The position numbers and the translations under genes are program-made. This document shows, in pieces, positions 42,493 to 62,826 of a DNA stretch of 64,000 bases. The notes beneath the pieces are model-generated. The model saw nothing but the letters and a program-made list of their open reading frames with translations, ran no database searches and had not been told where the DNA came from. Positions within the stretch are counted from its first letter, which is position 1. Every line of letters starts with the position of its first letter. This DNA comes from an uncultured Verrucomicrobiota bacterium (GTDB lineage Bacteria; Verrucomicrobiota; Verrucomicrobiia; Limisphaerales; UBA1319), in assembly GCA_903845125.1 (NCBI GenBank), contig CAIMWS010000405.1:1-64000 (forward strand). The letters are read 5' to 3'.

Positions 42493-42951
42493 CTATTGTT
42501 GCCCGCCACCGCCACCACCGCCGCCCCGGTTGCCACGGCCGCCGAAGCCTCCACCCATGCCGAACATGGACATGAAGCCCATGGGCGAGCTTTCCAGTTG
42601 GGATTTCTGATCGGCGGTGAGGTTGACTTTTTTCAGCGCCTTGAAGCGAACCATGGCCATTTCCGCCTGGATTTTATATACGGCTTCCACTTTGGCCTTC
42701 ACCGTGGCTTCACTGGCATCCGCCGCCAGAGCGGCTTTAACCGCCTCTTTTTGGGCTTCGTTGAGTTTTTCCCGCAGGGGGGTCATGTCGGCCTGAATAG
42801 CCTCGCGCAGTTGGGTGCTTTGGTCCTGGGTCAGGATCATCCCGCGGCCACCCTGGCCGCCACCGCTTTGTTGCGCAGCGGCCTGAAAAGTTAGAGCGCA
42901 AAACAAGCCAGCAACCAGGGCGGTGCATTTGAGAAACATTCTTGAGTTCAT
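42493..42951 (-). CDS. Spy/CpxP/ZraP-like periplasmic protein with Gly-rich tail
   Basis: Signal peptide; QLREAIQADMTPLREKLNEAQKEAVKAALA...AEMAMVRFKALKKVNLTADQKSQLES; GGGFGGRGNRGGGGGGGGQQ. Confidence 0.7.
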   Translation of the reverse strand: MNSRMFLKCTALVAGLFCALTFQAAAQQSGGGQGGRGMILTQDQSTQLREAIQADMTPLREKLNEAQKEAVKAALAADASEATVKAKVEAVYKIQAEMAMVRFKALKKVNLTADQKSQLESSPMGFMSMFGMGGGFGGRGNRGGGGGGGGQQ

Positions 42952-43126: not shown

Positions 43127-43648
43127 TCATTCCGTTCGTCCAAGGGGGGGGACCATAGCCAGGCCGGGCCGGGAAAAGAAAAGAAAATCTGTGCTAGTGC
43201 CGGCCATACGCGCCAACCGCTGCTCCGCGGTTTCCCGCAACAGGGCAGCGATGACACTGAGCAGCTTGGGAAAATCGAGTGGTTTTTCCATCAAGGCACC
43301 CACGCCGGCACCCATGGCGGTGAAATTTTGATCGGGCCGGCCAGTTATAATGACCACCGCCATGCATGGATTGGCGGAGGTCAGCCGCTCAAAAACTTCC
43401 CAACCATTGAGCTCGGGCAGGCAGAGGTCCAAAAGCACCAGATCGATGACTTCCCCGGCAGCTATGGCGAGAGCTTGCACGCCATTGGCCGCGCTGAGCA
43501 CGCGATAATGCTGGTCGGCCAATACGTGGCCCAGCATTTGGCGAACCGAATAGTCGTCATCGATAATCAGGATGGTTTGAGTGGTGGCAGCCACTACGGC
43601 ATCCCCAGTGCAATTCATTTCAGTCATGGTTGATCCGGGAGCCGACAC
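43127..43648 (-). CDS. Stand-alone response-regulator receiver domain protein
   Basis: TILIIDDDYSVRQMLGHVLADQHY; DLVLLDLCLPELNGWEVFERL; MEKPLDFPKLL. Confidence 0.88.
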   Translation of the reverse strand: MSAPGSTMTEMNCTGDAVVAATTQTILIIDDDYSVRQMLGHVLADQHYRVLSAANGVQALAIAAGEVIDLVLLDLCLPELNGWEVFERLTSANPCMAVVIITGRPDQNFTAMGAGVGALMEKPLDFPKLLSVIAALLRETAEQRLARMAGTSTDFLFFSRPGLAMVPPLGRTE

Positions 43649-44090
43649 TTCATGAATTTAGTGATGGCACCGATTCTCCTGGCCGCAGTCTGCGGGCAGA
43701 CACTCGCAGGCAGACGCTGGACACTCGAGCCAGACTTATGGCACTGATCATCCCCTGAGCGTCTTACCACACCCAAAAAAATTCCCGGCGCACATCAACT
43801 AAATCCACTCCATGACGGCCCCCTATTTAAACCGATTGATTGGTCTTTAGGCGAAGCGGCGCGGCTGATTCACCTCCTTTGAATGCTAATTAGCAATCAG
43901 CTTTGCCGCAGCACCGGTTTTACCTAAGCGAAAATCATGCCAGGAGTTGCACAATTCCTGCTGGGGTGGATGCAGGTGACCTGAAACTTGTTTTTCCGGG
44001 CAAAGGACGCAAAACTGCCCTCCGAAAAGGGCTGAAAAGACAGGTTGGGTGGATAACCATTAGGCTGCGCGTATAGGAATTGACCACATC

Positions 44091-45452
44091 ATGATGAATT
44101 TGCGTGTCCAACTGCGAATCGTGGCGCTGGCAACCGCCATTGGGCTGCTGGGCCTGTCGATCGCCTTCCTGGCCTTCAAATCAGAGCGGCAGTTCGAGGA
44201 ACTACGAACCCGCTTAAAGCAGGTGGATTCGGAAAGCTACCGGATCGCGGACCAGTTCAAGGAATCGCTGAGCCAACTGAACAGCTCACTGGTTAGGTTC
44301 AGCAGCAACCATGACCCGACGGACCTGACCAACTTCCTCAAGGCCAGCCACGAGTTGGACGATTGGATTGACGACCAAAAACCCAAAATGACCAGTGACC
44401 TGGAAAAAGCCCTGGTGCAGCAATTGGATGTGGCTTACACCAATTATGTGCGGGAGTCCAAAACCGTAGTGGCCCGGCTGCAAACCTTGGGCAAACAAAA
44501 CGCAACCTTGGAGATGCTCACCCCGTTCCTGGCCCAAGCCCAAATCCTGTCTGACCTTGGCCAGGCCCTGGCGCGGGCCCATTTCGAATCCCGGACCACC
44601 TTGCTTTCCCACGTGAACCAAACCATCTCCGAATTCCGGGTCTGGCAGCTGATTTCCCTGGGCTGCCTGTTCCTTTTGGGTATCGCACTGGCCATTTTGG
44701 TTTACCGGGATTTGATTTCGCCTCTGCGCGCGCGACTGATTGAGGATCAAGCCCTGCTGGAGCGTCAGGAAAAACTCGCCGCGCTGGGATTACTCGCCGC
44801 CGGAGTCGCTCACGAAATCCGCAACCCACTCACCGCCATCAAGGCGGCGCTTTACGTCCAGATGAAAAAATTCCAGGCGGGCTCGCCCGAACTGGCCGAC
44901 GCCAGGGTCGTGGAACGTGAAATATCCCGCCTCGAAAAAATTGTGAGCGACTTCCTTCTTTTCGCACGTCCAGCCGAGCCGTGCCTGGCCGTCGCGGTCG
45001 CCGAAACGCCGCTGCAGGAGGTTCACAGCCTGTTGGGTCCACCATTGGCCAAGCGCGGCATCCGGCTGGATCTCGAGCCAGCGCCGGAGCTGAGGATTAA
45101 AGCGGACCTGGCCCAGCTAAAACAGGTATTGATCAACCTGGTGCAAAATGCCGCCGACGCAGCCGGCCGCGGCGGCTTGGTCACCTTGCGTCTCCGCAAG
45201 GACCGGAAGCGCATCGCCAGCCAGGACACCGCGGTTGCCATCTTCGAAGTCACCGACAGTGGCAAGGGTATTCCGCCGGATGCGCAAAAACGCCTGTTTG
45301 ATCCGTTCTTCACGACCAAAGAAAATGGGACCGGCCTGGGGTTGTCCATTGCGGCAGGCATCATTCAAAAGCACGGCGGCGCCCTCCAATACCAAACCCA
45401 GGTTGACTGCGGCACCACCTTTGGTATCATTCTGCCGTTAGTTACCGAATGA
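44091..45452 (+). CDS. Sensor histidine kinase (NtrB/ZraS type)
   Basis: LAALGLLAAGVAHEIRNPLTAIKAALYV; LINLVQNAADAAGRGG; FFTTKENGTGLGLSIAAGIIQKHGG. Confidence 0.93.
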   Translation: MMNLRVQLRIVALATAIGLLGLSIAFLAFKSERQFEELRTRLKQVDSESYRIADQFKESLSQLNSSLVRFSSNHDPTDLTNFLKASHELDDWIDDQKPKMTSDLEKALVQQLDVAYTNYVRESKTVVARLQTLGKQNATLEMLTPFLAQAQILSDLGQALARAHFESRTTLLSHVNQTISEFRVWQLISLGCLFLLGIALAILVYRDLISPLRARLIEDQALLERQEKLAALGLLAAGVAHEIRNPLTAIKAALYVQMKKFQAGSPELADARVVEREISRLEKIVSDFLLFARPAEPCLAVAVAETPLQEVHSLLGPPLAKRGIRLDLEPAPELRIKADLAQLKQVLINLVQNAADAAGRGGLVTLRLRKDRKRIASQDTAVAIFEVTDSGKGIPPDAQKRLFDPFFTTKENGTGLGLSIAAGIIQKHGGALQYQTQVDCGTTFGIILPLVTE

Positions 45453-46882
45453 TTCCTGGTGCCGCGATACTTTTAATTGAAGATGACCCTGGCATTGCCG
45501 ACACCTTGCAGCGGGTGTTGACCGAGGAGGGCCATCAGGTAGCCGTCGAATCCCGCGGCGATTCCGGCCTGGAGCGCGCCGCCCGGGAAGCTTTCCAAGT
45601 CGTGATCACCGATCTGAAAATGCCCGGCCTGGGCGGCTTGGACATCGTCCGCCGGCTACGCGCCACCCAACCGCGCCTGCCGGTCATCCTCATCACCGCT
45701 TTCGGCACCACCGAAACCGCCATCGAAGCGATGAAGATTGGCGCCTACGATTACCTTTTGAAACCTTTCGACATCGCCGTGATGATCGAGCTGGTGCGCC
45801 AGGCGGCCGACAGCAGCCGTTTCATGTCCGAACCGGTCAGCCTGGGCGAAACGGATCGGTCGCGCGATGCCCTGGTGGGCCGCAGCCTGGCCATGCAGCA
45901 CATCTACAAGGAGATCGGCCGCGTAGCGTCCAAGCCCGTGACAGTGCTGATCCGGGGCGAAACCGGGACCGGCAAAGAGCTGATCGCCCGTGCCATCTAC
46001 CAGCACAGCGACCGCGCCCAGGCCTCTTTTATCGCCATCAACTGCGCGGCGATTCCCGAGGCGTTGCTGGAGAGCGAGCTCTTCGGCCATGAGCGCGGCG
46101 CCTTCACGGGCGCGGACAACCGTCGGATCGGCCGCTTTGAACAGGCCGACCACGGCACTCTGTTCCTGGATGAAATCGGCGACCTGCCTCCCGGCACTCA
46201 AGTCAAGCTCCTGCGCGTGCTCCAGGAAAAAAACCTGGTGCGCCTGGGCGGCAAGGAAACCATCCCGGTCGATGTCCGCATCATCGCCGCCACCCACCGG
46301 GATCTGGAAACCGCCCTGCGGGAAAAGCAATTCCGGGAGGATCTTTACTACCGCCTCAACGTGGCTGTCATCACCCTGCCCCCCTTGCGCCAGCGCCGCG
46401 AAGACATCCCTGAACTCATCCGGTATTTCCTGGGCAAACATGGACCCGAGTTTGGCGCCGCCAGCCCTTCGATCCATCCCGAGGCGCTCAGCTTTCTGCA
46501 GGCGCAGCCATGGCCCGGCAACGTGCGCGAGCTGGAAAACGTGGTCCGCAAAGCCCTCCTGGCCGCCCAAGGCTACCCCATCACCCCGGATCATGTCCGC
46601 CCGGCCTTGAGCAAAGCCCGGCTCCCGGAGCATTCGGACCTGGAATCTTTTGGCGGGTTCATCGATGACCTGCTCGCCGCGGCCCGCCGCGAAGAGCTTA
46701 CGGATGTCCACGCCCGCGTCATCGAAACCGCCGAGCGCGAACTGCTCACACGCGCCATCAAGCAGGCCCAAGGCAACCAGGCCAAAGCCGCCCGCTGGCT
46801 GGGCATCACCCGCATGACGATGCGCGCCAAGCTCACCGAGTTTGGGCTTCATCCCGCGCAGGAACAGGACTCGCCCGTTTGA
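45449..46882 (+). CDS. Sigma-54-dependent NtrC-family response regulator
   Basis: Receiver domain; AAA+ with [74 protein letters not shown]. Overlaps kinase stop (ATGA). Confidence 0.96.
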
Positions 46883-47060: not shown

Positions 47061-47408
47061 TTATTTGGGGCCCAAAGTGCGGTCTCCCCGCTCCCCGGTT
47101 TTGATCCGCAAGGCGTCCAGCACCGGCAACACAAACACCTTGCCGTCACCCACATTCCCGGTATGTGCGGAGCGGTATATCGCCGCCAGGATGTCCTCCG
47201 CCTCCTCATCCCGGCAGGCGATTTCCAGGCGTAACTTGCGGGTCATTTCCAAGCCGATGTACTCGCGGTGGTCGGGATGCCGGGGATCGTGTTCCTGGCC
47301 GAAGCCCCTGGCCTCGGACACCGTCATACCCGGCACATGGTATTCAATGAGCGCATCCACCAAGCGGTGCAAGTGTTCGGGCGGAATGAAAGCGATGATG
47401 AATTTCAT
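47061..47408 (-). CDS. PII-family protein associated with an RND efflux operon (PII-NG-like)
   Basis: MKFIIAFIPPEHLHRLVDALIEYHVPGMTVSEARGFGQ and TGNVGDGKVFVLPVLDALRIKTGERG are PII signatures; directly downstream of the RND pump. Confidence 0.88.
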   Translation of the reverse strand: MKFIIAFIPPEHLHRLVDALIEYHVPGMTVSEARGFGQEHDPRHPDHREYIGLEMTRKLRLEIACRDEEAEDILAAIYRSAHTGNVGDGKVFVLPVLDALRIKTGERGDRTLGPK

Positions 47409-47410
47409 GG

Positions 47411-50400
47411 TCAATAGTCGGCTTTGGCGTCCTCGAACAACGGATAGAGGATCGGCAGAACGAACAAGGTCAGCAAGGTGGCAGTGCCCAACCCGCCGAT
47501 GATGACGACTGCGAAAGGCCGGGCCGTTTCCGCCCCCACTGCGGTGGAAAGCCCGGCCGGGAGCAGGCCCAAGGCGGCCATAAGGGCGGTCATGACCACC
47601 GGCCGCACGCGGCTGACGGCTCCTTCCATGATGGCTTCCGCCATCGCCAGGCCGGCCTGGCGAAGCTCCCGAATACGCTCCACGAGGATGACCCCGTTTT
47701 GGATGGAGAGGCCGAACAGGGCGATGAAGCCCACCAGAGCCGAAACGGACAAAGCCAGGCCGGACAGCGGCAGGGCCATTATCCCCCCCACGGCGGTGAA
47801 GGGCACATTCAGGAGGATGAGAATGGCCAGCTTGCCGGAATCAAACGCCGTAAACAGCAGGAAGAATATGGCCAGCAGGGTGATCGGTACCACCACCGCC
47901 AAGCGTTTGACGGCGCGCTGCTGGTTTTCGAAGGCACCCGTCCATTCCAGGTGATACCCGGCCGGCAGCCGCACCTGGGCCTCCACCTTTTTCTGGGCCT
48001 CCGCCACCAGCGAACCCAGGTCGCGGCCGCGCACCGAGAGCTTGACGGCGGTGCGGCGCTCATTCTCCTCCCGGTAAATCCGCGCGAAGCCGGGTTTCAG
48101 CTCGATGCTGGCCACTGTGCCGAGGTTGAGACGTTCGCCGTTGGAACCGAAGACGGGAATGTTGCGGATGGATTCCAGGTTGGACACGGCGCCAGGGGTC
48201 AAGCGGACTGCCAGGTTGAAGGTCCGCTCGCCATCCAGAACCTGGGTGGCCACGGCACCGCCCATAGCGGTTTCCACCACCGATTCCACATCGGATACTG
48301 AAAGCCCGAACCGGGCGATCGCCGCGCGGTCGATCTCAATCTGGATTTGGGGCTGGCCCAGCAACTCTTCGGTGCCGACATCCGCGGCCCCCGGCACGGT
48401 TTTGAGGATATCAACGGTCTGATCGGCCAGCGCCTGCAGCTTGAGCGGATCCTCCCCGTAGATCTTGATGCTCAGCTCGGCCTTGATGCCGGAGATGGCC
48501 TCGTTGACGTTATCCTCGATCATCTGGCTGAACTGGAATTCCACCCCGGGGATTTCCGCCAGCTTGCGCCCCATGGCAGCGGCCAGGCCGTTGCGGTCCC
48601 GGGCGGTAACCCACCGTTCGCGCGGGCTCAATTCCACGGAGCATTCGACGATATCGAAGCCGTTGATGTCGGTGCCATCGTCGGGCCGCCCCAACTGGGT
48701 TACCACCGATTGTGTTTCCGGAAAGGAGGCCAGGATGCCGCGCACTTTTTTCACCAGGCGGGCGGCCTCGGTGGGGGAAATCGTCTCCGGCATGAATCCC
48801 CGGACCCAAAGGGAGCCCTCGTCCAACTTGGGCAGGAACTCCGAACCGCTGAAATAGAGGGTGACCCCGGCCAGGACGAGGCTGGCCAGCGCGGCGGAAA
48901 ACACCACCCAGCGGGCCGCCAGCGCCCGTTGGAGCCAGGGGCGGTACCAGGCCACCAGCCTCCGGACAATCCAGGATTCATGCCCGGCGCCATGCGGTTT
49001 CACCGCGACGCTCGCGATGGCGGGCACCACCGTGAGCGCCAGGAGGGTGCCCACCACCAACGCGAAGGTCAGCGTCAACGCCATGGGCTGGAAGATCTTC
49101 CCTTCCACCCGCTGCATGGTGTAGAGCGGGATGAACGCGGTGAGGAGGATCGCCTTGGAAAAAAGGATGGGACGGCCCATTTGTCCAAAAGCCTCCACGA
49201 TCGCCGCGGTCAGGGAGCGCACTTTCTGTTTCCTTTCCTCCAGCAGGCGCAGCAGGTTTTCCATCACGACGACGGCAGAATCCACAATAATGCCGAAGTC
49301 GATGGCGCCCATCGAAATCAGGTTGGCCGGAATGCCGCGCAAGTCGAGCAGCAGAAAGGCCCCCAGCAGGGACAGCGGCACGACCGCGGCCACCACCAGG
49401 GCGGAGCGATAGTTCCCCAGCCCCAGGAATAAAATCAGCACCAGCAGCACCAGCGAGACCCCCTCCACCATGTTTTTGCGCACCGTATGCAAGGTGCGCC
49501 CGATCAGTTCGGTGCGGTCGTAGTGCATCACCATCCGCACCCCCTGGGGCAGGAATTTGGCGTTGATTTCGCGGACCTTGGCGCGCACGAGCTTGAGCAC
49601 CTCCAAGGCGTTCTCCCCTTTGCGCATGATCACGATGCCCTCCACCACGTCATCCTGATCCGGCTCGCCAGGAAGGATTTTGCCCACCCGGCCCAGGCGC
49701 AATTGGGAGCCGATGGAAACGGCCCCCAAGTCACGGATGCGGATGGGAGTGCCGTTGCGGGTTTCCACCGCGATGGCGGCGATGTCCTCCACGTTACGCA
49801 CAAACCCCAGCCCGCGCACGATGTACATCTCCGAGCCGTGCTCGATGTACGAACCGCCCGCATTGCGGTTGCCATTGGCGAGGGCGGTGAATACCTGCTG
49901 CAAGGAGATGCCGTAGGATTTGAGCCGCGCGGGATCAATCGATACCTGGTATTGCTTGGTTGGTCCCCCAAACCCCACCACATCGACGATGCCCGGTACT
50001 GTGCGCAGCTTACGCTCCACCACCCAATCCTGCAAGGCCCGCACTTCCTCGGGGGGGTGGCCGGCCGGGGCTTTCAGAGTGTAGCGGTAGATTTCGCCCA
50101 CCGGGGTGGAGTCCGGCGAAAGGCCCGCCTGGGCTCCCGCGGGCAGCGCCACGGTGGAAAGCAGCTGGTAGGCCTGGTTGCGGACATAAGCCCGGTCGGT
50201 TTGGTCCTCAAACACGATGGTGATTTGTGAAAGGCCGAACAGGGAGATCGACCGGATGGAAGAACGGCGGGGAATGCCGTTCATCACGTTTTCCAGGGGA
50301 ATGGTCACCAGGCGCTCCACTTCCTCGGCGGCGTGCCCCGGGAACAGGGTGATGATCTGGAAGCTCACATTCGTGACATCGGGATAGGCCTCCACCGGCA

Positions 50401-50500
50401 GCCGTTGGAAGGCGAAAATGCCCGCCACGATATAAATCAACAACAGGGCGGCGACGATCGGCCGATGGCGCAGGATGTACGATACCAACGTTGCCATCAC
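47411..50500 (-). CDS. Heavy-metal efflux RND pump (CzcA/CusA family)
   Basis: LPVEAYPDVTNVSFQIITLFPGHAAEEVERLVTIPLE; GAIDFGIIVDSAVVVMENLLR; about 1029 aa. Confidence 0.95.
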   Translation of the reverse strand: MMATLVSYILRHRPIVAALLLIYIVAGIFAFQRLPVEAYPDVTNVSFQIITLFPGHAAEEVERLVTIPLENVMNGIPRRSSIRSISLFGLSQITIVFEDQTDRAYVRNQAYQLLSTVALPAGAQAGLSPDSTPVGEIYRYTLKAPAGHPPEEVRALQDWVVERKLRTVPGIVDVVGFGGPTKQYQVSIDPARLKSYGISLQQVFTALANGNRNAGGSYIEHGSEMYIVRGLGFVRNVEDIAAIAVETRNGTPIRIRDLGAVSIGSQLRLGRVGKILPGEPDQDDVVEGIVIMRKGENALEVLKLVRAKVREINAKFLPQGVRMVMHYDRTELIGRTLHTVRKNMVEGVSLVLLVLILFLGLGNYRSALVVAAVVPLSLLGAFLLLDLRGIPANLISMGAIDFGIIVDSAVVVMENLLRLLEERKQKVRSLTAAIVEAFGQMGRPILFSKAILLTAFIPLYTMQRVEGKIFQPMALTLTFALVVGTLLALTVVPAIASVAVKPHGAGHESWIVRRLVAWYRPWLQRALAARWVVFSAALASLVLAGVTLYFSGSEFLPKLDEGSLWVRGFMPETISPTEAARLVKKVRGILASFPETQSVVTQLGRPDDGTDINGFDIVECSVELSPRERWVTARDRNGLAAAMGRKLAEIPGVEFQFSQMIEDNVNEAISGIKAELSIKIYGEDPLKLQALADQTVDILKTVPGAADVGTEELLGQPQIQIEIDRAAIARFGLSVSDVESVVETAMGGAVATQVLDGERTFNLAVRLTPGAVSNLESIRNIPVFGSNGERLNLGTVASIELKPGFARIYREENERRTAVKLSVRGRDLGSLVAEAQKKVEAQVRLPAGYHLEWTGAFENQQRAVKRLAVVVPITLLAIFFLLFTAFDSGKLAILILLNVPFTAVGGIMALPLSGLALSVSALVGFIALFGLSIQNGVILVERIRELRQAGLAMAEAIMEGAVSRVRPVVMTALMAALGLLPAGLSTAVGAETARPFAVVIIGGLGTATLLTLFVLPILYPLFEDAKADY

Positions 50501-51648
50501 AGCTTGCCTCCGGATTCCATCACCGTCTGCAGCAGCAGGCAGCCTTCCGTCACGATTCGCTGGGCTTCACGGAGCCCGTTCAGCACCCCGATTTTGCCGT
50601 CATTTTCCAGGCCGAGCACCACTGCTTTGCGTTCGTAGCTGCCGGGGGAATTCTCCACAAAGACAAACGCCTTGCTCTCCTTGTGGAAAACCGCCTTCGC
50701 GGGGATTTCGATGGTGGCCGAAGCATCACTGTAGATTTCCGCTGTCACATACATCTCCGCTTTGAGCAGTTTTTCAGGATTCGGCACCGAGGCCCGCACC
50801 TTGACCGCGCGGGTGGCCGGATCCAGCGCATCGCCGATCAATTCAATCCGGCCCTCGAACCGGCGGCCCGGATAGGCCTGGCTGCGCAGCTGAAGGGTCT
50901 GGCCGGGCTTCAGCTTGGGCAAATCCAACTCGGTGGCGTCCAGGAGGAGCCAGAGCCGGGTGGGATCGGAAATGACAAATTGCGGGGAAAAAACCTGCGG
51001 CACGTTGCCCAGCATCTGGTCCGGCCGGACTTCCTGCCCGGGATTGAGGTTTTTCTCCACCACCACCCCGCCGATGGGGGCTTTGAGGGAATAGATCTGG
51101 TCAACGATGTCCGCGCCCCCTCCGTAAAGGGCCAACCGGGCCGCAGCCCGCTCCCGCTCGGACAGCGCGGAAACGTAGGCGTCCTCGGCGGCTTCAACCT
51201 CCTTTTGAGCGGTGGCGCCATGCTCCAGCAAGGTCTTGAGCCGGGCCAAATTCCGCTGCGCCAGTTGAAGGTCCGCCGTGCTCTTGCGCACATCCGACTG
51301 AGCCTGTCCAAAATCCGGCGATACGATCCTGGCCAGCACGTCCCCCGCCGCCACCACCTGGCCTTGGTTGACCGCCAAGGTGTCAACCCGTCCGCCCACG
51401 GGCGAAAAAATCCGAACGGTGACTTCGTCGTTCCAAACGAGCCGGCCGGTCAACAGGATCGTGTTGGTGCGGCGCAAGGCCACTTCCTCCACTGCCAGCG
51501 AATTCATCTGCGCGGAGCCGGACGGCAGGACAATTCGGTCGCCATCCACTTGCGTGCCAGCCGCGCCGGGGGCGGCTTTTTTTTCGCCGTGGCATCCGGC
51601 CCCTAACAGGAAACCAAATAATATTGGAATGAATTGGGGGTATTTCAT
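50497..51648 (-). CDS. RND efflux periplasmic adaptor (membrane fusion protein)
   Basis: Lipoprotein-like signal FLLGAGCHG; GGRVDTLAVNQGQVVAAGDVLARI; SLKAPIGGVVVEKNLNPGQEV. Confidence 0.93.
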   Translation of the reverse strand: MKYPQFIPILFGFLLGAGCHGEKKAAPGAAGTQVDGDRIVLPSGSAQMNSLAVEEVALRRTNTILLTGRLVWNDEVTVRIFSPVGGRVDTLAVNQGQVVAAGDVLARIVSPDFGQAQSDVRKSTADLQLAQRNLARLKTLLEHGATAQKEVEAAEDAYVSALSERERAAARLALYGGGADIVDQIYSLKAPIGGVVVEKNLNPGQEVRPDQMLGNVPQVFSPQFVISDPTRLWLLLDATELDLPKLKPGQTLQLRSQAYPGRRFEGRIELIGDALDPATRAVKVRASVPNPEKLLKAEMYVTAEIYSDASATIEIPAKAVFHKESKAFVFVENSPGSYERKAVVLGLENDGKIGVLNGLREAQRIVTEGCLLLQTVMESGGKL

Positions 51649-53018
51649 CGTGGGTCCATTTTGTTTTCCAATCCGCCGGCTTCAGATTGGGCAGCCTGTA
51701 GGGCGGCCAGGGCGGCGGCCGCGGCGGCCGCCGATTGCACCGCCGCCAGGCGCACCTCGTTGTCATTACGCTGGGCCGAAAGCAGGTCCAGCACCGAGGC
51801 TCCGCCTTTTTGATACGCGAACGAAATTGCTTCCAAAATGCTGGCGGACCTGGCTTTGATTTCCCGCTGGTAATGATCATACCGGGCGGCGGCATCCTGA
51901 TAGGCCGATCGGGCGGTGGCGATGTCCGCGGCAATCTGCGCCCGCACCTTGTCTTCCTGGACCGCCGCCTGGTCGCGGGCGGCTTCAGCGGCCTTGATCG
52001 CGCCCCGGTTATGGTTCCACAGCGGCAGCGGAAACGAAAGCCCCAGGCCAATGGTGTGATTGGCATCCGGCGGGTTGTGCTCATACATCATCAGGACCGT
52101 CGGATCGGGAATACGCAAGGCTTTTTGCAGCCGCAAATCCGCCTCGGCTTTTTTGCGCAAGGCTTCCGCCGCCACCAGATCTGAACGCCGCGGGATGGGA
52201 TTTTGTTCGTTGCGGGCGGGCGGCTCGCCCAGCAGGCTCTCCAGGTTGTCCGTGGCCTTCCAGGCACCGGTGGGCTGGCTGGAGCCAATCAGGTTTTCCA
52301 AGCCAAGGCGTTGTTGGAGCGCGCTGGCTTCCGCGGCCCGGGCATCCACTTCAAAGCGCATGGCCAGGATTTCAATCTGGCTCTTGTCCGCCGTCGAGAT
52401 GTCCCCGGCTTGGAAGCGGATCGAGGCGATATCGGCCTCCCGCCGCAAGGCGGCCGCCGAATTGCGCAGGGTTTGCACGGTCAACTCGGCTTGCACCACG
52501 GCGATGTAGGCCTGCGTCACCCCGAGGTCAAGCAGGCGCCGGGCATTCTCCATCCGGGCCTTGGAGGCCGCGAAACCATGGTCCGCCGACTGCTGGCGAC
52601 TGCGCCTTTTGCCCCCGATTTCCAGCAGCTGATTGACGGAGGAAACCGTGTCATAGCTGCGGTCCCAGATCGAATTCCCGTAACTCGTGGAAGCTGGCTG
52701 CCCATTGACTGGCACTTTGCTGGTCGTCCACGAAAAGGTGGGGTTGGGGAATTCCCGGGCCATGATTTTCTGGGCCATGGCGATATCCACATCGCTTTTG
52801 GCAGCCAGGAGATCCCAGTTACGCTCCAAAGCCAACCGCTTGGCCTCCCCCAGCGAAAGCAACTCCGGGGTGCCCATGGCTGGGGCCTGGCGGGCGGGCG
52901 GGCGGGCGCCCGTTTCTGCCCCCACCCCGCAAACCCCGCCCGACAGTGACGCGGCAAGAATCCATCGGAACCATGTTCCCCGCATCATCCTCAACCTTTT
53001 TGCCATAGGGAGATACAA
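51645..53018 (-). CDS. TolC-family outer membrane efflux protein
   Basis: LSLGEAKRLALERNWDLLAAKSDVDIAMAQK; SAYQDAAARYDHYQREIKARS; start may be downstream of 53018. Confidence 0.92.
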   Translation of the reverse strand: MYLPMAKRLRMMRGTWFRWILAASLSGGVCGVGAETGARPPARQAPAMGTPELLSLGEAKRLALERNWDLLAAKSDVDIAMAQKIMAREFPNPTFSWTTSKVPVNGQPASTSYGNSIWDRSYDTVSSVNQLLEIGGKRRSRQQSADHGFAASKARMENARRLLDLGVTQAYIAVVQAELTVQTLRNSAAALRREADIASIRFQAGDISTADKSQIEILAMRFEVDARAAEASALQQRLGLENLIGSSQPTGAWKATDNLESLLGEPPARNEQNPIPRRSDLVAAEALRKKAEADLRLQKALRIPDPTVLMMYEHNPPDANHTIGLGLSFPLPLWNHNRGAIKAAEAARDQAAVQEDKVRAQIAADIATARSAYQDAAARYDHYQREIKARSASILEAISFAYQKGGASVLDLLSAQRNDNEVRLAAVQSAAAAAAALAALQAAQSEAGGLENKMDPR

Positions 53019-53042
53019 ACCCCTTTTCTGGAGGTCGTTTTG

Positions 53043-53399
53043 CTACTTTGAATCGACAATGATCCGCCGGGCAAGACCCTTGGAGGCGTCACACCATACC
53101 TTGACATGCATACCGGGCCTGATCCCCGATTGGGCCATGGGCATCCCTCGGGAGCGCAAATCGAACGCGCTCCAGACCCGCGTTTCCCCATTCCAAACCA
53201 GGGTGTCCACTTGGTTCCCCATTTCTTTCAAGCGAAACACCTTTTTTCCAGGTGCGATTTCAACCATCACCCCTTCTTTATAAGCAATCCAATGGCGTGT
53301 GTTACCAAAAGCGTTTTGACTGATTAAGAACACCGCCAAGGGCAGGAGTCCCTTGAGGCAGGTGGCCCATCTTGACCTGTTTTTACTTGTGTGATTCAT
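53043..53399 (-). CDS. Small secreted hypothetical protein, first gene of the efflux operon
   Basis: Signal WATCLKGLLPLAVFLISQNAFG; SGIRPGMHVKVWCDASKGLARRIIVDSK; about 25 nt upstream of the tolC-like ORF. Confidence 0.65.
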   Translation of the reverse strand: MNHTSKNRSRWATCLKGLLPLAVFLISQNAFGNTRHWIAYKEGVMVEIAPGKKVFRLKEMGNQVDTLVWNGETRVWSAFDLRSRGMPMAQSGIRPGMHVKVWCDASKGLARRIIVDSK

Positions 53400-53427
53400 G
53401 TAAATTCCAAATCCTGCTACGGGGTGA

Positions 53428-53443
53428 TGCAGCCTTCATGCCA
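53428..53443 (-). promoter_or_regulatory. Sigma-54 promoter (-24/-12) TGGCATG-AAGG-CTGCA
   Basis: 10 of 12 defined consensus positions (TGGCACG-N4-TTGCW), GG-N10-GC spacing intact, ending about 29 nt upstream of the ATG at 53399. Confidence 0.7.
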
Positions 53444-53786
53444 ACTATTTTATCATAACCCATCTAGTTCATATTCAACCACATATGAGAATTACCCCCA
53501 GACCGGAAACTTCCCCACTGGCCAGCCATTAACCAACCATGGCCAGCCACTGGCCACGGACCGCCGCTTCCCGGTGATGCGCCCAGCCAAACCCACCGGT
53601 GGGCGGAATGGCGCAGGATGCCATTGAATTTTGCGGCCTTCGGCCGCACACTCGATGCGGCCCTTATGGAAAAGCCCATTAGCAGACAAGCGCGGCGACG
53701 GTGGATCAGCGAGAGCGATGCGGCCAGGGGAAATGGCACCTCCACCAGAACCATGAACAATTCCAGGAACGACGCCTGACCACCCC

Positions 53787-54476
53787 ATGCAACTTCCCAA
53801 AGCCCGGCATCGTTGGAGTGTGAGCGCCCGGCAGGCGATCGCCATCCAGCGGCGGCTCGCGCAAGCGGTGGTGATTGAAAAACCGGCTTCACCCATCGCC
53901 CGGGTGGCCGGGGTGGATTGCGCCTTCAGCCGCGATGGCCGCCACTGCCTGGCGGCGGTGGTGGTTTGGGATCTCGCTGAAAACCGGGTGTGTGAGGAAC
54001 GGGTGGCCCGGTGCCAGCTCCGTTTCCCTTACGTCCCTGGATTATTGTCCTTCCGGGAAGCGCCAGCCATTCTGGCCGCCCTGCGTTTGCTGCGGCAGAC
54101 CCCGGATGCGCTCCTGTGTGATGGGCAGGGATTGGCCCATCCGCGCCGTTTCGGCCTCGCCTGCCACTTGGGAATCCTGACCGGTTTGCCCGCCTTGGGC
54201 TGCGCCAAGAGCCGGCTGATCGGCGAGGCACCGGAACCTGAACCGCGCCGCGGATCGCAAACGGAACTGCGCATTGGCGGGGAAACCGTTGGCCTGGTTC
54301 TCCGCACCCAGGACCGCGTGAAACCGGTCTATTTGAGCGTGGGCCACCGACTGGATCTGGGCACGGCGGTGGACCTGGTGCTGCGCTGCGCCCTCCGCTG
54401 CCGCTTGCCCGAACCAACCCGGCTGGCCGATCGGCTCGTGGCCGCGTATAAACGGGAATTGGAAACCGGGCACTGA
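53787..54476 (+). CDS. nfi: Endonuclease V (deoxyinosine 3'-endonuclease)
   Basis: VAGVDCAFSRDGRHCLAAVVVWD; FPYVPGLLSFREAPAIL; LLCDGQGLAHPRRFGLACHLGI. Confidence 0.93.
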   Translation: MQLPKARHRWSVSARQAIAIQRRLAQAVVIEKPASPIARVAGVDCAFSRDGRHCLAAVVVWDLAENRVCEERVARCQLRFPYVPGLLSFREAPAILAALRLLRQTPDALLCDGQGLAHPRRFGLACHLGILTGLPALGCAKSRLIGEAPEPEPRRGSQTELRIGGETVGLVLRTQDRVKPVYLSVGHRLDLGTAVDLVLRCALRCRLPEPTRLADRLVAAYKRELETGH

Positions 54477-56694: not shown

Positions 56695-59600
56695 ATGACT
56701 ACTGCCGCCATCCCCCAGGGATCGAAGCGCAAGGGAACTTGCCTTCACAAATATCATTCCAGCCAGGAGGAAATCCATTCCGCAGCGGCCCGCCCGGCCC
56801 GTCGGCCGGCCTGGGCACACCTGCTGCTTTTGGGCTGGCTGGCCTTGAAAATGAGCGGACTGCCCAGCCAGGCCGCCGATTATTTTGTATCGCCCCAGGG
56901 CCGGGATGACCAACCCGGCACCCGGGACCAGCCTTTTGCCAGCCTGAAACGGGCCCAGCAGGCGGCCCGCCTGGCTGCGGGCCGCGAACCCGTCACCGTT
57001 TTTCTCCGGGCCGGCACATATTATCTAACCGAACCGGTGGTGTTCACCCCCGAGGATTCCGGTACCCGGGAAGCGCCGGTCAAATACCAGGCCTGGGGAG
57101 AGGAGCCCGTAGTGATCAGCGGCGGCACGCGTTTGAATGGTTTGAAGTGGGAGGCCTGGCGGGATGGGATCCTGCAGGCGGAGGTTCCCGCCGGTCTGGA
57201 AACGGACCAACTGTTTGTGAATGGCGAACGCCAGCACATGGCCCGCTATCCCAATTTCAACGCCAGCGAGCGTATTTACAATGGCTACGCCGCGGACGCC
57301 ATCAGCCCGGAACGGGTCCAGCGCTGGGCCGATCCGCGCGGCGGCTACCTCCACGCCATGCACGAAGCGATGTGGGGGGGATTCCACTACCGCATCACCG
57401 GCAAGGATGCCGGGGGCAAAGCAGTCTATGAAGGGGGCTGGCAGAACAACCGCCCCGCCCGCATGCACGCCCGCTACCGGTTCGTGGAGAAAATTTTGGA
57501 GGAACTGGACGCCCCGGGTGAATGGTTCCTCGACAGCCCGCGCCACAAGCTCTTGTTTTTCCCGCCCGTGGGCCTTGATCTGTCCGCCGCCACCATCGAA
57601 ACCGTCCGCTTGCGCCGTTTGTTCGAGCTGCGGGGCACGCCGCAAAAGCCGGTGCGATTCCTGGCCCTCAAAGGGCTGGTGCTCCGCCACACGGCCCGCA
57701 CCTTCATGGACAACCGGGAGCCGCTGGTCCGCAGCGACTGGACCACCTACCGGGGCGGCACGATCTTCATCACCGGCAGCGAAGATTGCGTGGTGGAGGA
57801 TTGTTTCCTGGACCAGGTGGGAGGCAATGCCATTTTCGTGAACGAATACAACCGCCGGCTGACGGTACGTGGCTGCCACATCGCCAAGGCGGGCGCCAAC
57901 GGCGTCGCTTTCGTGGGGGATCGCAACGCGGCCCGTGTTCCGCGCGATTGGCAGGATCGTTCCCAAAGTTTCGCCACGCTGGACCGCACCCCGGGACCCA
58001 AAACGGATAATTACCCGGCCGATTGCCTCGTGGAGGATTGCCTGATTTATCTCAGTGGGCGGGTGGAAAAACAAACCTCGCCCGTGCAGATCGAGCTGGC
58101 CGAAGGCATCACGGTCCGCCATTGCTCGCTCTACCAGGTGCCGCGGGCGGGCATCAACATCGGCGACGGCTGCTGGGGCGGCCACGTGATCGAGTTCTGC
58201 GATATCTTCGACACCGTGCTCGAAACCGGCGATCACGGCTCTTTCAACTCCTGGGGCCGGGACCGTTTTTGGAACCTCAGCGGGCTGGACCTCAATGACG
58301 ACCGCACCTGGGAGCGGGAAAAGGAAACACCGCTGCTGGATGCCAGAAAAACGGTGATCCTGCGCAACAACCGGTGGCGCTGCGACCATGGGTGGGATAT
58401 CGACCTGGATGATGGCTCCACCAATTACCGGATCTATAACAACCTGTGCCTGAATGGCGGCCTCAAAAACCGGGAGGGCTTTTACCGGGTGGTGGAGAAC
58501 AACATCATCGTGAACAACGGATTTCATCCGCATGTCTGGTATAAGCACAGCCAGGACATCGTCCGCCGCAACCTCATGCTGACCGACCATTATCTGCCGG
58601 CGGGCGGCATGCCCTCCACGCCCTGGGGCGGGGAAATGGATTACAACCTGGTGCACCGGCCGGGCGTCAATCCGCCGCAGCCGGCCGCCAGGCTGGCGCA
58701 ACAATCCCAACGGGATGCCCACTCCGTCATCGCTGATGCCGGATTTATCAATCCCGCCCAAGGGGACTTCCGGGTGCGGGAGGATTCGCCCGCGTTGAAG
58801 CTAGGGTTTGTGAATTTCCCGATGGACCAATTCGGCGTGCGCAAACCGGCGTTGAAAGCCATCGCCCGCACCCCGCAAATCCCCACTCTCGTGATCCCCG
58901 GCGCCGAAGCAGACCGGCCCGCCCGCCCGCGGCGCAATCACCTTTGGCAAGCGCAGGTGCGGAATATCACCGGCCTGGGGGATCGCTCAGCCTACGGATT
59001 GCCCGATGAAAGCGGCGTGCTGCTGGTGAATGTTCCCGCGGGCACCCCGGCCGCCAAAGCCGGTCTGCGGAAGGACGATGTGATCCTGGCGTGCCAGGGC
59101 AAGCCGGTGCGCACCGTGCAGGATGTGCTGGCGCGCCAGAGCGCAGCAGCCGGAAGCAAGCTGTCGCTCGAGGTCCGGCGTCAGCAGCAGAACGTTACCC
59201 TGGAGGTTGCGGATTACGCCTATTTCATCACTGAACTGCGGGACGATGCCGCTTTCACAACCATCCCGATGCTGCCTTCCGCCGCCGTTTTGCCGGTCAA
59301 AGCCAGCGCCAGTGAACCCGCCACCGTGAATGAGCCGCTGGCCACCCTGGCGGATGGCCAGTTGGCCCGCAATTACGGCCCGGTGTTCCCCAACGGGATC
59401 AGCGGCGGGCTTTATAAGCTCGACCTGGGCAGCGTGAAGAACATCGCCCGCGTGAACAGTTTCTCTTTCAACGAGGGTGGCGGGCGGGGACGGCAGCGCT
59501 TCAGCCTCTACGGCAGCCAGGCGGACTCGGATCCAGGCTGGAATGTGGAGGATTCGCGGAGCTTCACCCCGATTGGGGAGGTGGACATGGCGGACGCGCC

Positions 59601-62600
59601 CAAGACCGGCTTCGCGGCCACCAGCCTCCGCCGCAGCGGCGGCCAGGCGCTGGGCGCCTTCCGCTGGCTGGTCTGGCGGGTGCTGCCGGTCACCACCGCG
59701 GGCGGCGGGGAAAACACCTCGTTCCAGGAATTCCAGGTGATTCCCCAGCCGGCCGGGCCCCGGAGCTGGAACCGAACCGGGCCGCTGGGCGAAACACCGT
59801 CACGCGCCAATGATGCCTATCCCCTCTCGGACCAGTCAAACCGCGCGGGCTGGAGGAAGTTCGAGCCGATGTGGGATGAGTTCGAGGGTCCGGCGCTCAA
59901 CACGAACCGCTGGCAGCTCAACATGAGCTGGTGGAAAGGCCGCCAGCCGGCCTTGTTCAGCGAGCACAATGTCACCGTCAGCAACCGCCAGTTGCATTTG
60001 ACCATGCGCCAGGCAACGCTGCCGGAAAGCGCGGCGCGCCAGGGATACACCAACTACACTTCAGCCGCCCTGCATACCCGGGCCAGGACCGCCTACGGTT
60101 ATTTCGAAGTCCGGGCCAGGCCGATGAATTCGGCGGGCTCCAGCTCGTTCTGGTTCCAGCAGGATGAGGCCCCCGGCTGGGGCACGGAAATCGATGTGTT
60201 CGAGATCGGCGGCAAGGCCAAGGGCTTTGAGCGGAAATACAATATGAACGCCCACGTGTTCCGCACCCCCACTGAAACCCGCCATTGGAGCGCGGGGGGG
60301 GAATGGCTGGCCCCCTGGCCGCTAGCCGCCGATTACCACGTGTACGGCTTGGAATGGGATGCGAAGGAGCTAAAGTATTTTGTCGATGGCGTGCTGGTCC
60401 GCACCGTGGAAAACACCCACTGGCACCAGCCCTTGTATCTCATCTTCGACAGCGAAACCATGCCCGGCTGGTTCGGCATGCCGGAGGACGCGGATCTGCC
60501 TTCCACCTTCAGCATCGACTACGTGCACGCGTGGAAAAAGGAGGGCAACCTCGTGGCCAACGGCGGATTCGAAAACGGGCTGGCGGACTGGCGGCCGTTT
60601 TGGAGCCGGCAGGCCGGGGCCGGTTCCGCGGTGATCGACCAGGCCGAAACCCACAGCGGCACGGCCGCGGCACGCATCGACCACCGCGGCCATGATGATT
60701 GGGCCTTGGAGCCCAATCTGCGCCTGCCGGTGCAAAGCGGCCAGGAATTCGAGCTGGCCGCGTGGATCCGGCTCCAGGGCGCCGGATCCGCCACCTTATG
60801 TGTATCCACCTGGGGGCAGGATGGCCGAAACCTCGACTGGTCGTACGCCGAGCGCACAACCGCGGCGACACCGGATTGGGTCCGCCTGCAAACCCGCTTT
60901 TACATCCCCCCGGGCGTGAGCCAGATCCAGCCGCGGCTGATCGGCTACGAGGCCGCCAAAGTCTGGGTGGACGATGTTTCCCTCGTCCAGCAAGTCGGCC
61001 TCAAGCTCGAGCGCCCGCCGGATTTGCCGGCCCAGTTGGCCCAGACCAACGAGTTCCTGGAGCTGCGGGTCCAAACCGCGGAAGGCACTTGGTCCGTCCT
61101 GGACCGCCGCTCCGGCCGGCTCTGGGGGCAAGCCGCGGCCCAAAAGGAACTGGTGGTAGCCGGCGGCCGGACCCGGAACGGGGAAATTGAACTCGACCTG
61201 ATCCACCTGACCTCCGGCCTCAAGTTGCGGGCCGTTCTCCAGCTGGATCCTATGCGCCCGGAACTCACGGTGCGCCTGGCCGCCGAGGGGGAAATGCGAA
61301 CCCCGCTGAAATATCCCCATCCGTTTGCCAGCGAACCGGGCGACCGCCTGGTGGTACCGATGAACGAGGGAATATCTTATCCGGTGGAAGACCGCTCGGT
61401 GGAGCCTTTCCGGCTGATCGCTTACGGCGGCCATGGCATCTGCATGGCTTTCTGGGGCGTGACCGGCGACCGCCCGGGATACTCGGCGATCATCGAGACC
61501 CCGGATGACGCCGCCATTCGGATCCAACGGCTGGCGGATCGCCTGGCCATCGCGCCGGAGTGGGATCCGCAAAAGGGCCGGTTCGGTTATGCGCGGCGGT
61601 TGCGTTATGTCTTTCACGACGGCGGCGGCCACGTGGCCATCGCCAAGCGCTACCGGGAACATGCCCGGCAAAACGGCCTCCTGAAAACCCTGGCCGAAAA
61701 ACGGAAGGAGAATCCGGAGGTTGATCTCCTTATCGGCGCGGCCAACATCTGGAATTGGGACGCCGACCCGGCGGCCCTCGTGCGGGAGATGAAGGAAGCG
61801 GGCCTCGAACGGATCCTCTGGAGCCGGGGTGGCTCCCCGGAGGCGGTGCGCGCCTTGAACGATTTGCAGGTCCTGACCAGCCGCTACGACATCTACCAGG
61901 ACGTGATGGACCCCGCGAATTTCCCATTCCTCCATGGTATCCACGGCGATTGGACCACCGCTGCCTGGCCCCAGGACCTCATCCGCCGCCAGGATGGCAG
62001 CTGGCAGCACGGCTGGGGCGTGCAGGGCAAAAAAGGCGAGTGGTTTTATTGCGGGGTCACCTGCGACCGCCAAGCCCTGGCCTACGCCCGCCAGCGCATT
62101 CCCGCCGACCTGGCCAGCCGCCCCTACAAATGCCGGTTTATCGACACCACCACAGCCTCTCCCTGGAACGAGTGCTGGCACACGAATCATCCCCTCACGC
62201 GATCCGAAAGCCGGGAATGGAAAATGAAGCTCCTGGATTATGTTTCCAAGGATATGAAACTGGTGACCGGCTGCGAGACGGGCCACGACGCGGCCGTGCC
62301 GTTCCTCCATTATTTCGAGGGCATGCTCAGCCTCGGCCCCTACCGGGTGCCCGACGCGGGGCGCGACATGCAACGGATCTGGACCGAGGTGCCCGAACCG
62401 GTGGCCAAATTCCAGCTCGGCCAGGCCTATCGCCTGCCGCTTTGGGAGCTGGTTTACCACGACTGCGTGGTAGCCCAGTGGTATTGGGGCGACTATAATA
62501 ACAAGCTGCCCGCCTTGTGGGAAAAACGCGACCTTTTCAACCTCCTCTACGGCACGCCCCCCATGTACATGTTCAACCGCAAGCTTTGGCAAGCCGAGCG

Positions 62601-62826
62601 CGGGCATTTTGCGCGCAGCTATCAGAATATCTGCCCGGCCGTGCGCGCCACTGGCTATGCGGAGATGACCAACCACCTTTTTCTGACGCCGGACCGCAAT
62701 GTCCAGCAGAGCACCTTCGCCAATGGCGTCACCGTCACCGTGAATTTCGGTGCCTCCGCCTATCAGCTCGCGTCCGGCGAAAGCGTGCCGCCCATGGGCT
62801 TCCGCGTGGCAGGCATGCCCCGATAA
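56695..62826 (+). CDS. 2043-aa secreted multidomain protein: beta-helix + PDZ + discoidin-like + GH16 + CBM-like + C-terminal glycosidase-like
   Basis: Single uninterrupted ORF. YFVSPQGRDDQPGTRDQPFASLKRAQ beta-helix start; PDZ VLLVNVPAGTPAAKAGLRKDDVILACQGKPV; GH16 GWGTEIDVFEIGG; NLVANGGFENGLADWRPFW CBM4/9-like; C-terminal TIM-barrel-like region. Confidence 0.85.
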   Translation: MTTAAIPQGSKRKGTCLHKYHSSQEEIHSAAARPARRPAWAHLLLLGWLALKMSGLPSQAADYFVSPQGRDDQPGTRDQPFASLKRAQQAARLAAGREPVTVFLRAGTYYLTEPVVFTPEDSGTREAPVKYQAWGEEPVVISGGTRLNGLKWEAWRDGILQAEVPAGLETDQLFVNGERQHMARYPNFNASERIYNGYAADAISPERVQRWADPRGGYLHAMHEAMWGGFHYRITGKDAGGKAVYEGGWQNNRPARMHARYRFVEKILEELDAPGEWFLDSPRHKLLFFPPVGLDLSAATIETVRLRRLFELRGTPQKPVRFLALKGLVLRHTARTFMDNREPLVRSDWTTYRGGTIFITGSEDCVVEDCFLDQVGGNAIFVNEYNRRLTVRGCHIAKAGANGVAFVGDRNAARVPRDWQDRSQSFATLDRTPGPKTDNYPADCLVEDCLIYLSGRVEKQTSPVQIELAEGITVRHCSLYQVPRAGINIGDGCWGGHVIEFCDIFDTVLETGDHGSFNSWGRDRFWNLSGLDLNDDRTWEREKETPLLDARKTVILRNNRWRCDHGWDIDLDDGSTNYRIYNNLCLNGGLKNREGFYRVVENNIIVNNGFHPHVWYKHSQDIVRRNLMLTDHYLPAGGMPSTPWGGEMDYNLVHRPGVNPPQPAARLAQQSQRDAHSVIADAGFINPAQGDFRVREDSPALKLGFVNFPMDQFGVRKPALKAIARTPQIPTLVIPGAEADRPARPRRNHLWQAQVRNITGLGDRSAYGLPDESGVLLVNVPAGTPAAKAGLRKDDVILACQGKPVRTVQDVLARQSAAAGSKLSLEVRRQQQNVTLEVADYAYFITELRDDAAFTTIPMLPSAAVLPVKASASEPATVNEPLATLADGQLARNYGPVFPNGISGGLYKLDLGSVKNIARVNSFSFNEGGGRGRQRFSLYGSQADSDPGWNVEDSRSFTPIGEVDMADAPKTGFAATSLRRSGGQALGAFRWLVWRVLPVTTAGGGENTSFQEFQVIPQPAGPRSWNRTGPLGETPSRANDAYPLSDQSNRAGWRKFEPMWDEFEGPALNTNRWQLNMSWWKGRQPALFSEHNVTVSNRQLHLTMRQATLPESAARQGYTNYTSAALHTRARTAYGYFEVRARPMNSAGSSSFWFQQDEAPGWGTEIDVFEIGGKAKGFERKYNMNAHVFRTPTETRHWSAGGEWLAPWPLAADYHVYGLEWDAKELKYFVDGVLVRTVENTHWHQPLYLIFDSETMPGWFGMPEDADLPSTFSIDYVHAWKKEGNLVANGGFENGLADWRPFWSRQAGAGSAVIDQAETHSGTAAARIDHRGHDDWALEPNLRLPVQSGQEFELAAWIRLQGAGSATLCVSTWGQDGRNLDWSYAERTTAATPDWVRLQTRFYIPPGVSQIQPRLIGYEAAKVWVDDVSLVQQVGLKLERPPDLPAQLAQTNEFLELRVQTAEGTWSVLDRRSGRLWGQAAAQKELVVAGGRTRNGEIELDLIHLTSGLKLRAVLQLDPMRPELTVRLAAEGEMRTPLKYPHPFASEPGDRLVVPMNEGISYPVEDRSVEPFRLIAYGGHGICMAFWGVTGDRPGYSAIIETPDDAAIRIQRLADRLAIAPEWDPQKGRFGYARRLRYVFHDGGGHVAIAKRYREHARQNGLLKTLAEKRKENPEVDLLIGAANIWNWDADPAALVREMKEAGLERILWSRGGSPEAVRALNDLQVLTSRYDIYQDVMDPANFPFLHGIHGDWTTAAWPQDLIRRQDGSWQHGWGVQGKKGEWFYCGVTCDRQALAYARQRIPADLASRPYKCRFIDTTTASPWNECWHTNHPLTRSESREWKMKLLDYVSKDMKLVTGCETGHDAAVPFLHYFEGMLSLGPYRVPDAGRDMQRIWTEVPEPVAKFQLGQAYRLPLWELVYHDCVVAQWYWGDYNNKLPALWEKRDLFNLLYGTPPMYMFNRKLWQAERGHFARSYQNICPAVRATGYAEMTNHLFLTPDRNVQQSTFANGVTVTVNFGASAYQLASGESVPPMGFRVAGMPR

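Follow-up and report, generated by a model that had tools for sequence, protein, structure and literature searches.

The stretch of DNA analysed here (the window, 64,000 nucleotides of contig C405 in an 8.5-Mb draft genome that is 93% complete) carries a minus-strand operon which we consider quite probably to be a sigma-54-dependent HME-RND efflux operon, controlled by the local NtrC-type regulator through two upstream dyads, belonging to a module that includes a receiver-only protein, and equipped with a PII protein that may adjust the pump. The sigma-54 promoter and the metal-efflux/PII operon reported in the preliminary description are both confirmed. As we envisage it, sigma-54 polymerase would wait at the promoter at 53443-53428 until the regulator (45449-46882), phosphorylated by a kinase with a predicted four-helix-bundle sensor (44091-45452), binds the dyads at 53519-53557, loops across approximately 75 bp and opens the promoter, from which a Zn/Co/Cd-type HME-RND operon would be transcribed. 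The same regulator would also fire a second sigma-54 promoter (43942) leading to the receiver-only protein, which probably acts as a phosphate sink or feedback element, and the PII encoded at the end of the operon would act as a sensor of cytoplasmic metal and/or the adenylate state via a rebuilt T-loop. The locus as a whole would then represent one copy of an order-wide module composed of a kinase, a regulator, a divergent sigma-54 promoter, a receiver and, often, a pump.

Efflux operon, pump and sensor kinase

The operon extends from 53399 to 47061 in the order small secreted protein, TolC, MFP, HME-RND pump and PII, and its five genes are as tightly packed as first described, with 24 nt between the small secreted gene and TolC and with the MFP, RND and PII genes each overlapping the preceding stop by 4 nt. 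The leading gene (53043-53399) encodes a small secreted OB/DUF5666-like protein for which a Pfam profile search returned no match, and whose homologs lead TolC-MFP-RND operons at two other loci (L036 and L037); a single-sequence AlphaFold model of the protein (pLDDT 38) was discarded. Exported proteins that resemble it, with three OB/DUF5666-like repeats, are encoded near sigma-54 sites in the operons opposite the kinase at L178 and L188. There follow a TolC/OEP-type outer-membrane channel (51645-53018, PF02321, with a TTG start and a possible ATG at 53004), a membrane-fusion protein (50497-51648, HlyD_D23 and TIGR01730), the pump (47411-50500) and PII (47061-47414), all on the minus strand. 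The plus-strand kinase and regulator genes (44091-46882) are convergent with the operon and have no promoter in common with it. Beyond the other end of the operon, an endonuclease V gene (53787-54476; PF04493, 238 bits) is divergent from it, and positions 56695-62826 encode a 2043-aa fusion protein with beta-helix, PDZ, GH16, CBM4/9 and GH129-like domains.

The pump matches TIGR00914 over its full length with 954.6 bits (cut-off 701) and contains the DFGxxxD motif (DFGIIVDSAVVVMEN); homologous pumps are 81% (L240) and 76% (L040) identical to it. Relative to the metal-site residues of ZneA and CusA, whose numbering we take to be as given here, the pump keeps equivalents of ZneA E136, D172, D602, E610 and D654 and has E at the equivalent of D658, and its positions aligned with the methionine path of the Cu/Ag branch (CusA) are R, V and E, with no methionines. 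Because ZneA is the closest solved relative (807 bits over the full length, as compared with 563 bits for CusA), the acidic residues are kept and the CusA methionines are missing, the substrate is likely to be a divalent cation. The likeness to ZneCAB/CzcCBA (ZneA, PDB 4k0e) thus lies in the full-length RND match and the retained acidic metal path, whereas the regulation and the PII partner are different in the window.

The kinase (HisKA/HATPase) has a periplasmic domain that is predicted to form a four-helix bundle (model pLDDT 82), and the predicted fold resembles the LytS-N, MCP2201, PcaY, QseE and KinB sensors. TolC-MFP-HME-RND operons lie opposite the family kinase at L036, L040, L177, L180, L181, L183 and L184, and kinase and regulator together are directly opposite a TolC-MFP-RND operon at, for example, L036 (where the gene order is small protein, receiver, TolC, MFP and RND), L174, L177, L180, L181 and L183. 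The family kinase/regulator pairs at L150, L159, L160 and L161 stand opposite MdtABC-like MFP-RND-RND operons. As L150 is the closest relative of the local pair (regulator approximately 80% identical, kinase 57%), the signal received by the kinase may be broader than metal. We place somewhat short of an even chance on a module that senses envelope or multidrug stress instead of metal, with the metal pump as one of several outputs across species; the loci L150, L159 and L160 favour such a role, as does a sensor modelled as a generic four-helix bundle, but the many family kinases that face TolC-MFP-HME-RND operons argue for a link to metal.

The terminal PII protein

The last gene of the operon encodes a protein that matches PF00543 with 76.1 bits (cut-off 25), a match under which there is also a weak one to DUF3240 (PF11582; 24.3, cut-off 21), and its start is more likely ATG 47408 than 47414. 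A PII gene is found directly 3' of the RND gene in six genomes of the order, namely in the window and at L040 (the G144 copy), L238, L239, L240 and L241; the nearest named relative with such an RND-PII operon is an uncultured Pedosphaera (L040), whose PII is 67% identical to that of the window (L240, 64%). A phylum-wide sample of PII proteins held no other close match (next best 105 bits versus 244), and a plasmid search for close relatives gave matches that were all below 60% identity.

In all six genomes the canonical T-loop GFGRQKGHTELYRGAEY has been replaced by GFGQEHDxxHPx(H/Y)RE, which in the window reads GFGQEHDxxHPxHRE. The position of E. coli GlnB glutamine 39, which we take to be a 2-oxoglutarate-binding residue (the roles of the PII residues discussed here are likewise presumed), is occupied by E, and the nucleotide/ATP site is largely kept (GDGK and the R101 equivalent). 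The motif suggests that the T-loop may serve as a metal sensing site, and the operon position together with the conserved histidine-rich loop makes it plausible that PII tunes the pump. At L238 and L239 the same TolC-MFP-RND-PII operon is located behind a NarL/LuxR-type kinase-regulator pair and is without a sigma-54 site; the pump-PII unit is thus the stable part, and the regulator is the part that has been exchanged.

That PII could instead be a passenger engaged in nitrogen/carbon signalling, without action on the pump, seems unlikely to us. In its favour are the canonical ATP-site residues, which are largely kept, and the operons at L036 and L037, which are without PII; yet the gene comes right after RND in the window, L040 and L238-L241 even under a different regulator, glutamine 39 has been replaced and the T-loop rewritten, and the genome has three ordinary PII genes elsewhere.

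A PII-family (PII-NG) gene in an operon with CzcABC has been described in Geobacter sulfurreducens (GSU2134-2137; PMC7726332), and the same combination of a PII-family gene and a CzcABC-type pump in one operon is seen here; an operon with heavy-metal RND genes, a feature of the PII-NG group, is present in the window and five other genomes. In Geobacter the PII gene is first and the operon is Fur-linked (PMC7726332), whereas in the window PII is last, its T-loop carries the histidine motif and the operon would be driven by sigma-54.

Sigma-54 promoters, upstream dyads and the regulator

A near-consensus -24/-12 element had been placed about 29 nt before the first ATG, and we find it there: TGGCATGAAGGCTGCA (53428-53443, minus strand) lies 28 nt before ATG 53399, and elements of the same class occur in kinase-family loci and homologous operons. 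The genome has one copy of rpoN. The strict consensus pattern TGGCAYGNNNNYTGCW (TGGCAY-N5-type) has 11 matches in the 8.5-Mb genome, with 7 for the reversed control, and the chance that one falls in the 100 bp preceding a given start is approximately 6e-5; since this pattern was picked after the site had been seen, the comparative tests carry the weight, and since it is rare yet barely above its control, conservation was tested. Of the 293 genomes of the order, 96 encode a kinase with such a sensor, and the comparison set comprised 40 kinase neighbourhoods together with L036 and L040, from which near-duplicates and the window were dropped (n=36). The pattern applied, TGGCAY-N7-GCW, was fixed once the window and the loci L036, L037 and L040 had been inspected, and the 36 loci include two of them. 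It lies upstream of the kinase and is directed away from it at 26/36 loci, and toward it at 1/36 (reversed pattern 0; Markov shuffles mean 0.5, maximum 5), in a set of loci that are of common ancestry and hence not fully independent. These 26 sites precede the kinase start by 104-544 bp, 13 of them by 104-117 bp. Among the orthologous operons, where conservation of the GG-N10-GC motif had been proposed as a check, the motif is kept at L036, L037, L040 and L240 and is absent at the two loci whose regulator is of a changed type, L238 and L239.

A palindromic upstream activator (UAS) motif was learned from 19 kinase-family promoters with the window left out. It approximates GGnnA-N6-TnnCC and occurs as paired 18-bp dyads 20-22 bp apart, which lie 72-74 bp before the -24 in 15 of the 19 training promoters and 62-63 or 95 bp before it in the other four, spacings that are near whole helical turns from the norm. 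Upstream of the efflux operon, a predicted promoter-proximal dyad TGGCCAGCCATTAACCAA (53519-53536) and a promoter-distal dyad TGGCCAGCCACTGGCCAC (53540-53557), 21 bp apart and with a pair score of 14.5, stand 75 bp before the -24; the pair ranks 2 of 191,886 positions in the 64-kb window and is the top pair among 85 promoter-like sites in the part of its own genome that was examined (exact-slot chance approximately 5e-5). The homologous operon of L240, which was outside the training set, has a dyad pair of score 24.6 at a gap of 75, and at L040 the divergent kinase, dyads and -24/-12 are all present. The combined pattern TGGCCA-N60-90-TGGCAY-N7-GCW has 16 matches in the window's own genome (0 and 2 in controls), and the other matches examined had no dyad pair near the window's score at the right distance. 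Sigma-54 control of the efflux operon is thus well supported at the sequence level by a conserved -24/-12 element and a UAS match at a conserved distance. At L190 (G000:C525), -24/-12-like sites at ~293 and 1262-1273 have moderate dyad pairs (12-13.5) and are near another activator gene. An EM motif search on the window's regulator subgroup alone, whose recognition helix has RAKL/KAKL in place of REKL, yielded coding sequence for the kinase N-terminus and no UAS, and was set aside.

A second -24/-12 element, TGGCATGATTTTCGCT (43927-43942, minus strand), which the preliminary description had missed, is divergent from the kinase and heads the gene of the receiver-only protein (43127-43648, minus strand, ATG 43627; PF00072). 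Beside the kinase start there is a weak UAS pair, TGGATAACCATTAGGCTG / CGTATAGGAATTGACCAC (44050-44087; rank 52 of 191,886), positioned relative to that start as in relatives and with a gap of 107 to the second -24. The receiver-only protein is a conserved partner of the kinase family, and in many relatives its gene likewise lies opposite that of the kinase; the conserved core is ITARPNQ...GALLEKPLDFPKLL, and the phospho-acceptor residues are intact in most members, the window's included. The small exported glycine-rich protein encoded 3' of it (42493-42951, minus strand) matches LTXXQ weakly (Spy-like; 13.9 bits, under the cut-off of 24.3), and its gene is possibly a further member of the receiver transcript.

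The regulator belongs to the NtrC family, with a receiver (PF00072, 99 bits), an AAA+ domain bearing GAFTGA (PF00158, 248 bits) and a Fis HTH (PF02954, 43 bits) that all score above cut-off, and the initial reading of 44091-46882 as a kinase with a GAFTGA-bearing sigma-54 regulator accordingly stands. The promoters with -24/-12 elements and upstream dyads are its candidate targets. Among the 14 strong sigma-54 activator matches in the genome, it alone has the family-type HTH and recognition helix, and the next-best regulator is 46% identical, versus 56-80% for family members elsewhere. As the only family member in a genome with a family-specific UAS before the operon, it is well supported by comparison as the regulator that drives the operon, as had been proposed, and it would presumably do so by binding the dyads; we hold this with caution, mainly because the subgroup helix residue has changed. 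Further points against control by the local regulator are that its subgroup yielded no UAS of its own, that the kinase-side dyads are weak, that L238 and L239 have NarL-type control, that a search of 18 kb next to the kinase at L040 found no regulator gene, and that 13 other activators are present. The other activators, the helix difference and the weak kinase-side dyads would also suit an arrangement that we regard as rather improbable, in which the sigma-54 promoter is real but another activator drives the operon and the local pair serves its own receiver gene only; L240, moreover, has no kinase on its contig, and its operon must be controlled from an unlinked locus. That arrangement is opposed by the family's own UAS motif and by the lack of the family HTH and the low identity of the other activators found. 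A chance -24/-12 match, with the operon using an unrecognised housekeeping or ECF promoter, is very improbable: the strict consensus is only slightly above control genome-wide, but the UAS pair stands at the conserved distance, the element is conserved in homologous operons and kinase loci, and no sigma-70-like promoter is listed upstream of the operon.

Known systems and an order-wide module

In ZraPSR of E. coli and Salmonella, a kinase and an NtrC-type regulator are accompanied by a divergent sigma-54 partner gene and linked to heavy metals. The analogy drawn earlier to ZraSR holds for the layout, as the window has such a pair, a partner gene behind a divergent sigma-54 promoter and a heavy-metal link; it does not extend to family membership, as the proteins fall far below the NCBIfam cut-offs (ZraS 188.9/479 and ZraR 390.9/760 bits), nor to the sensor, which is predicted to be an all-helical four-helix bundle. 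Here, moreover, the partner is a receiver-only protein and the UAS is also found at a tripartite pump operon; the candidate for a ZraP-type protein, the product of 42493-42951, has the weak LTXXQ match given above. GlrKR/QseEF likewise pair a kinase with a sigma-54 activator, and the local kinase, with its predicted four-helix-bundle sensor, and its activator resemble them; the regulator is below the cut-off of the GlrR model (349.7/763), however, and has other targets. The locus is a variation on an NtrC-type two-component/efflux theme.

In the literature searched, neither a sigma-54 enhancer-binding regulon for this order nor sigma-54 activators in Verrucomicrobia are described. We would tentatively suggest, as a reading that we hold to be less likely than not, that a sigma-54 two-component module found across the order, made up of a kinase, an NtrC-type regulator, a receiver-only protein under joint control and tandem dyads (~21 bp apart and ~74 bp from the -24), has been plugged onto different RND pumps, and that in this branch the pump brings its own cytoplasmic metal sensor, a PII in which the conserved His/Asp residues of the T-loop would bind metal. 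For this large and mostly uncultured order, the analysis provides predictions of a UAS, a promoter, a regulator and a target, together with a case of a pump operon that has kept its PII while the transcriptional regulator was swapped. Through the T-loop motif, the role of PII in the company of metal pumps can be put to a direct test on a single small protein.
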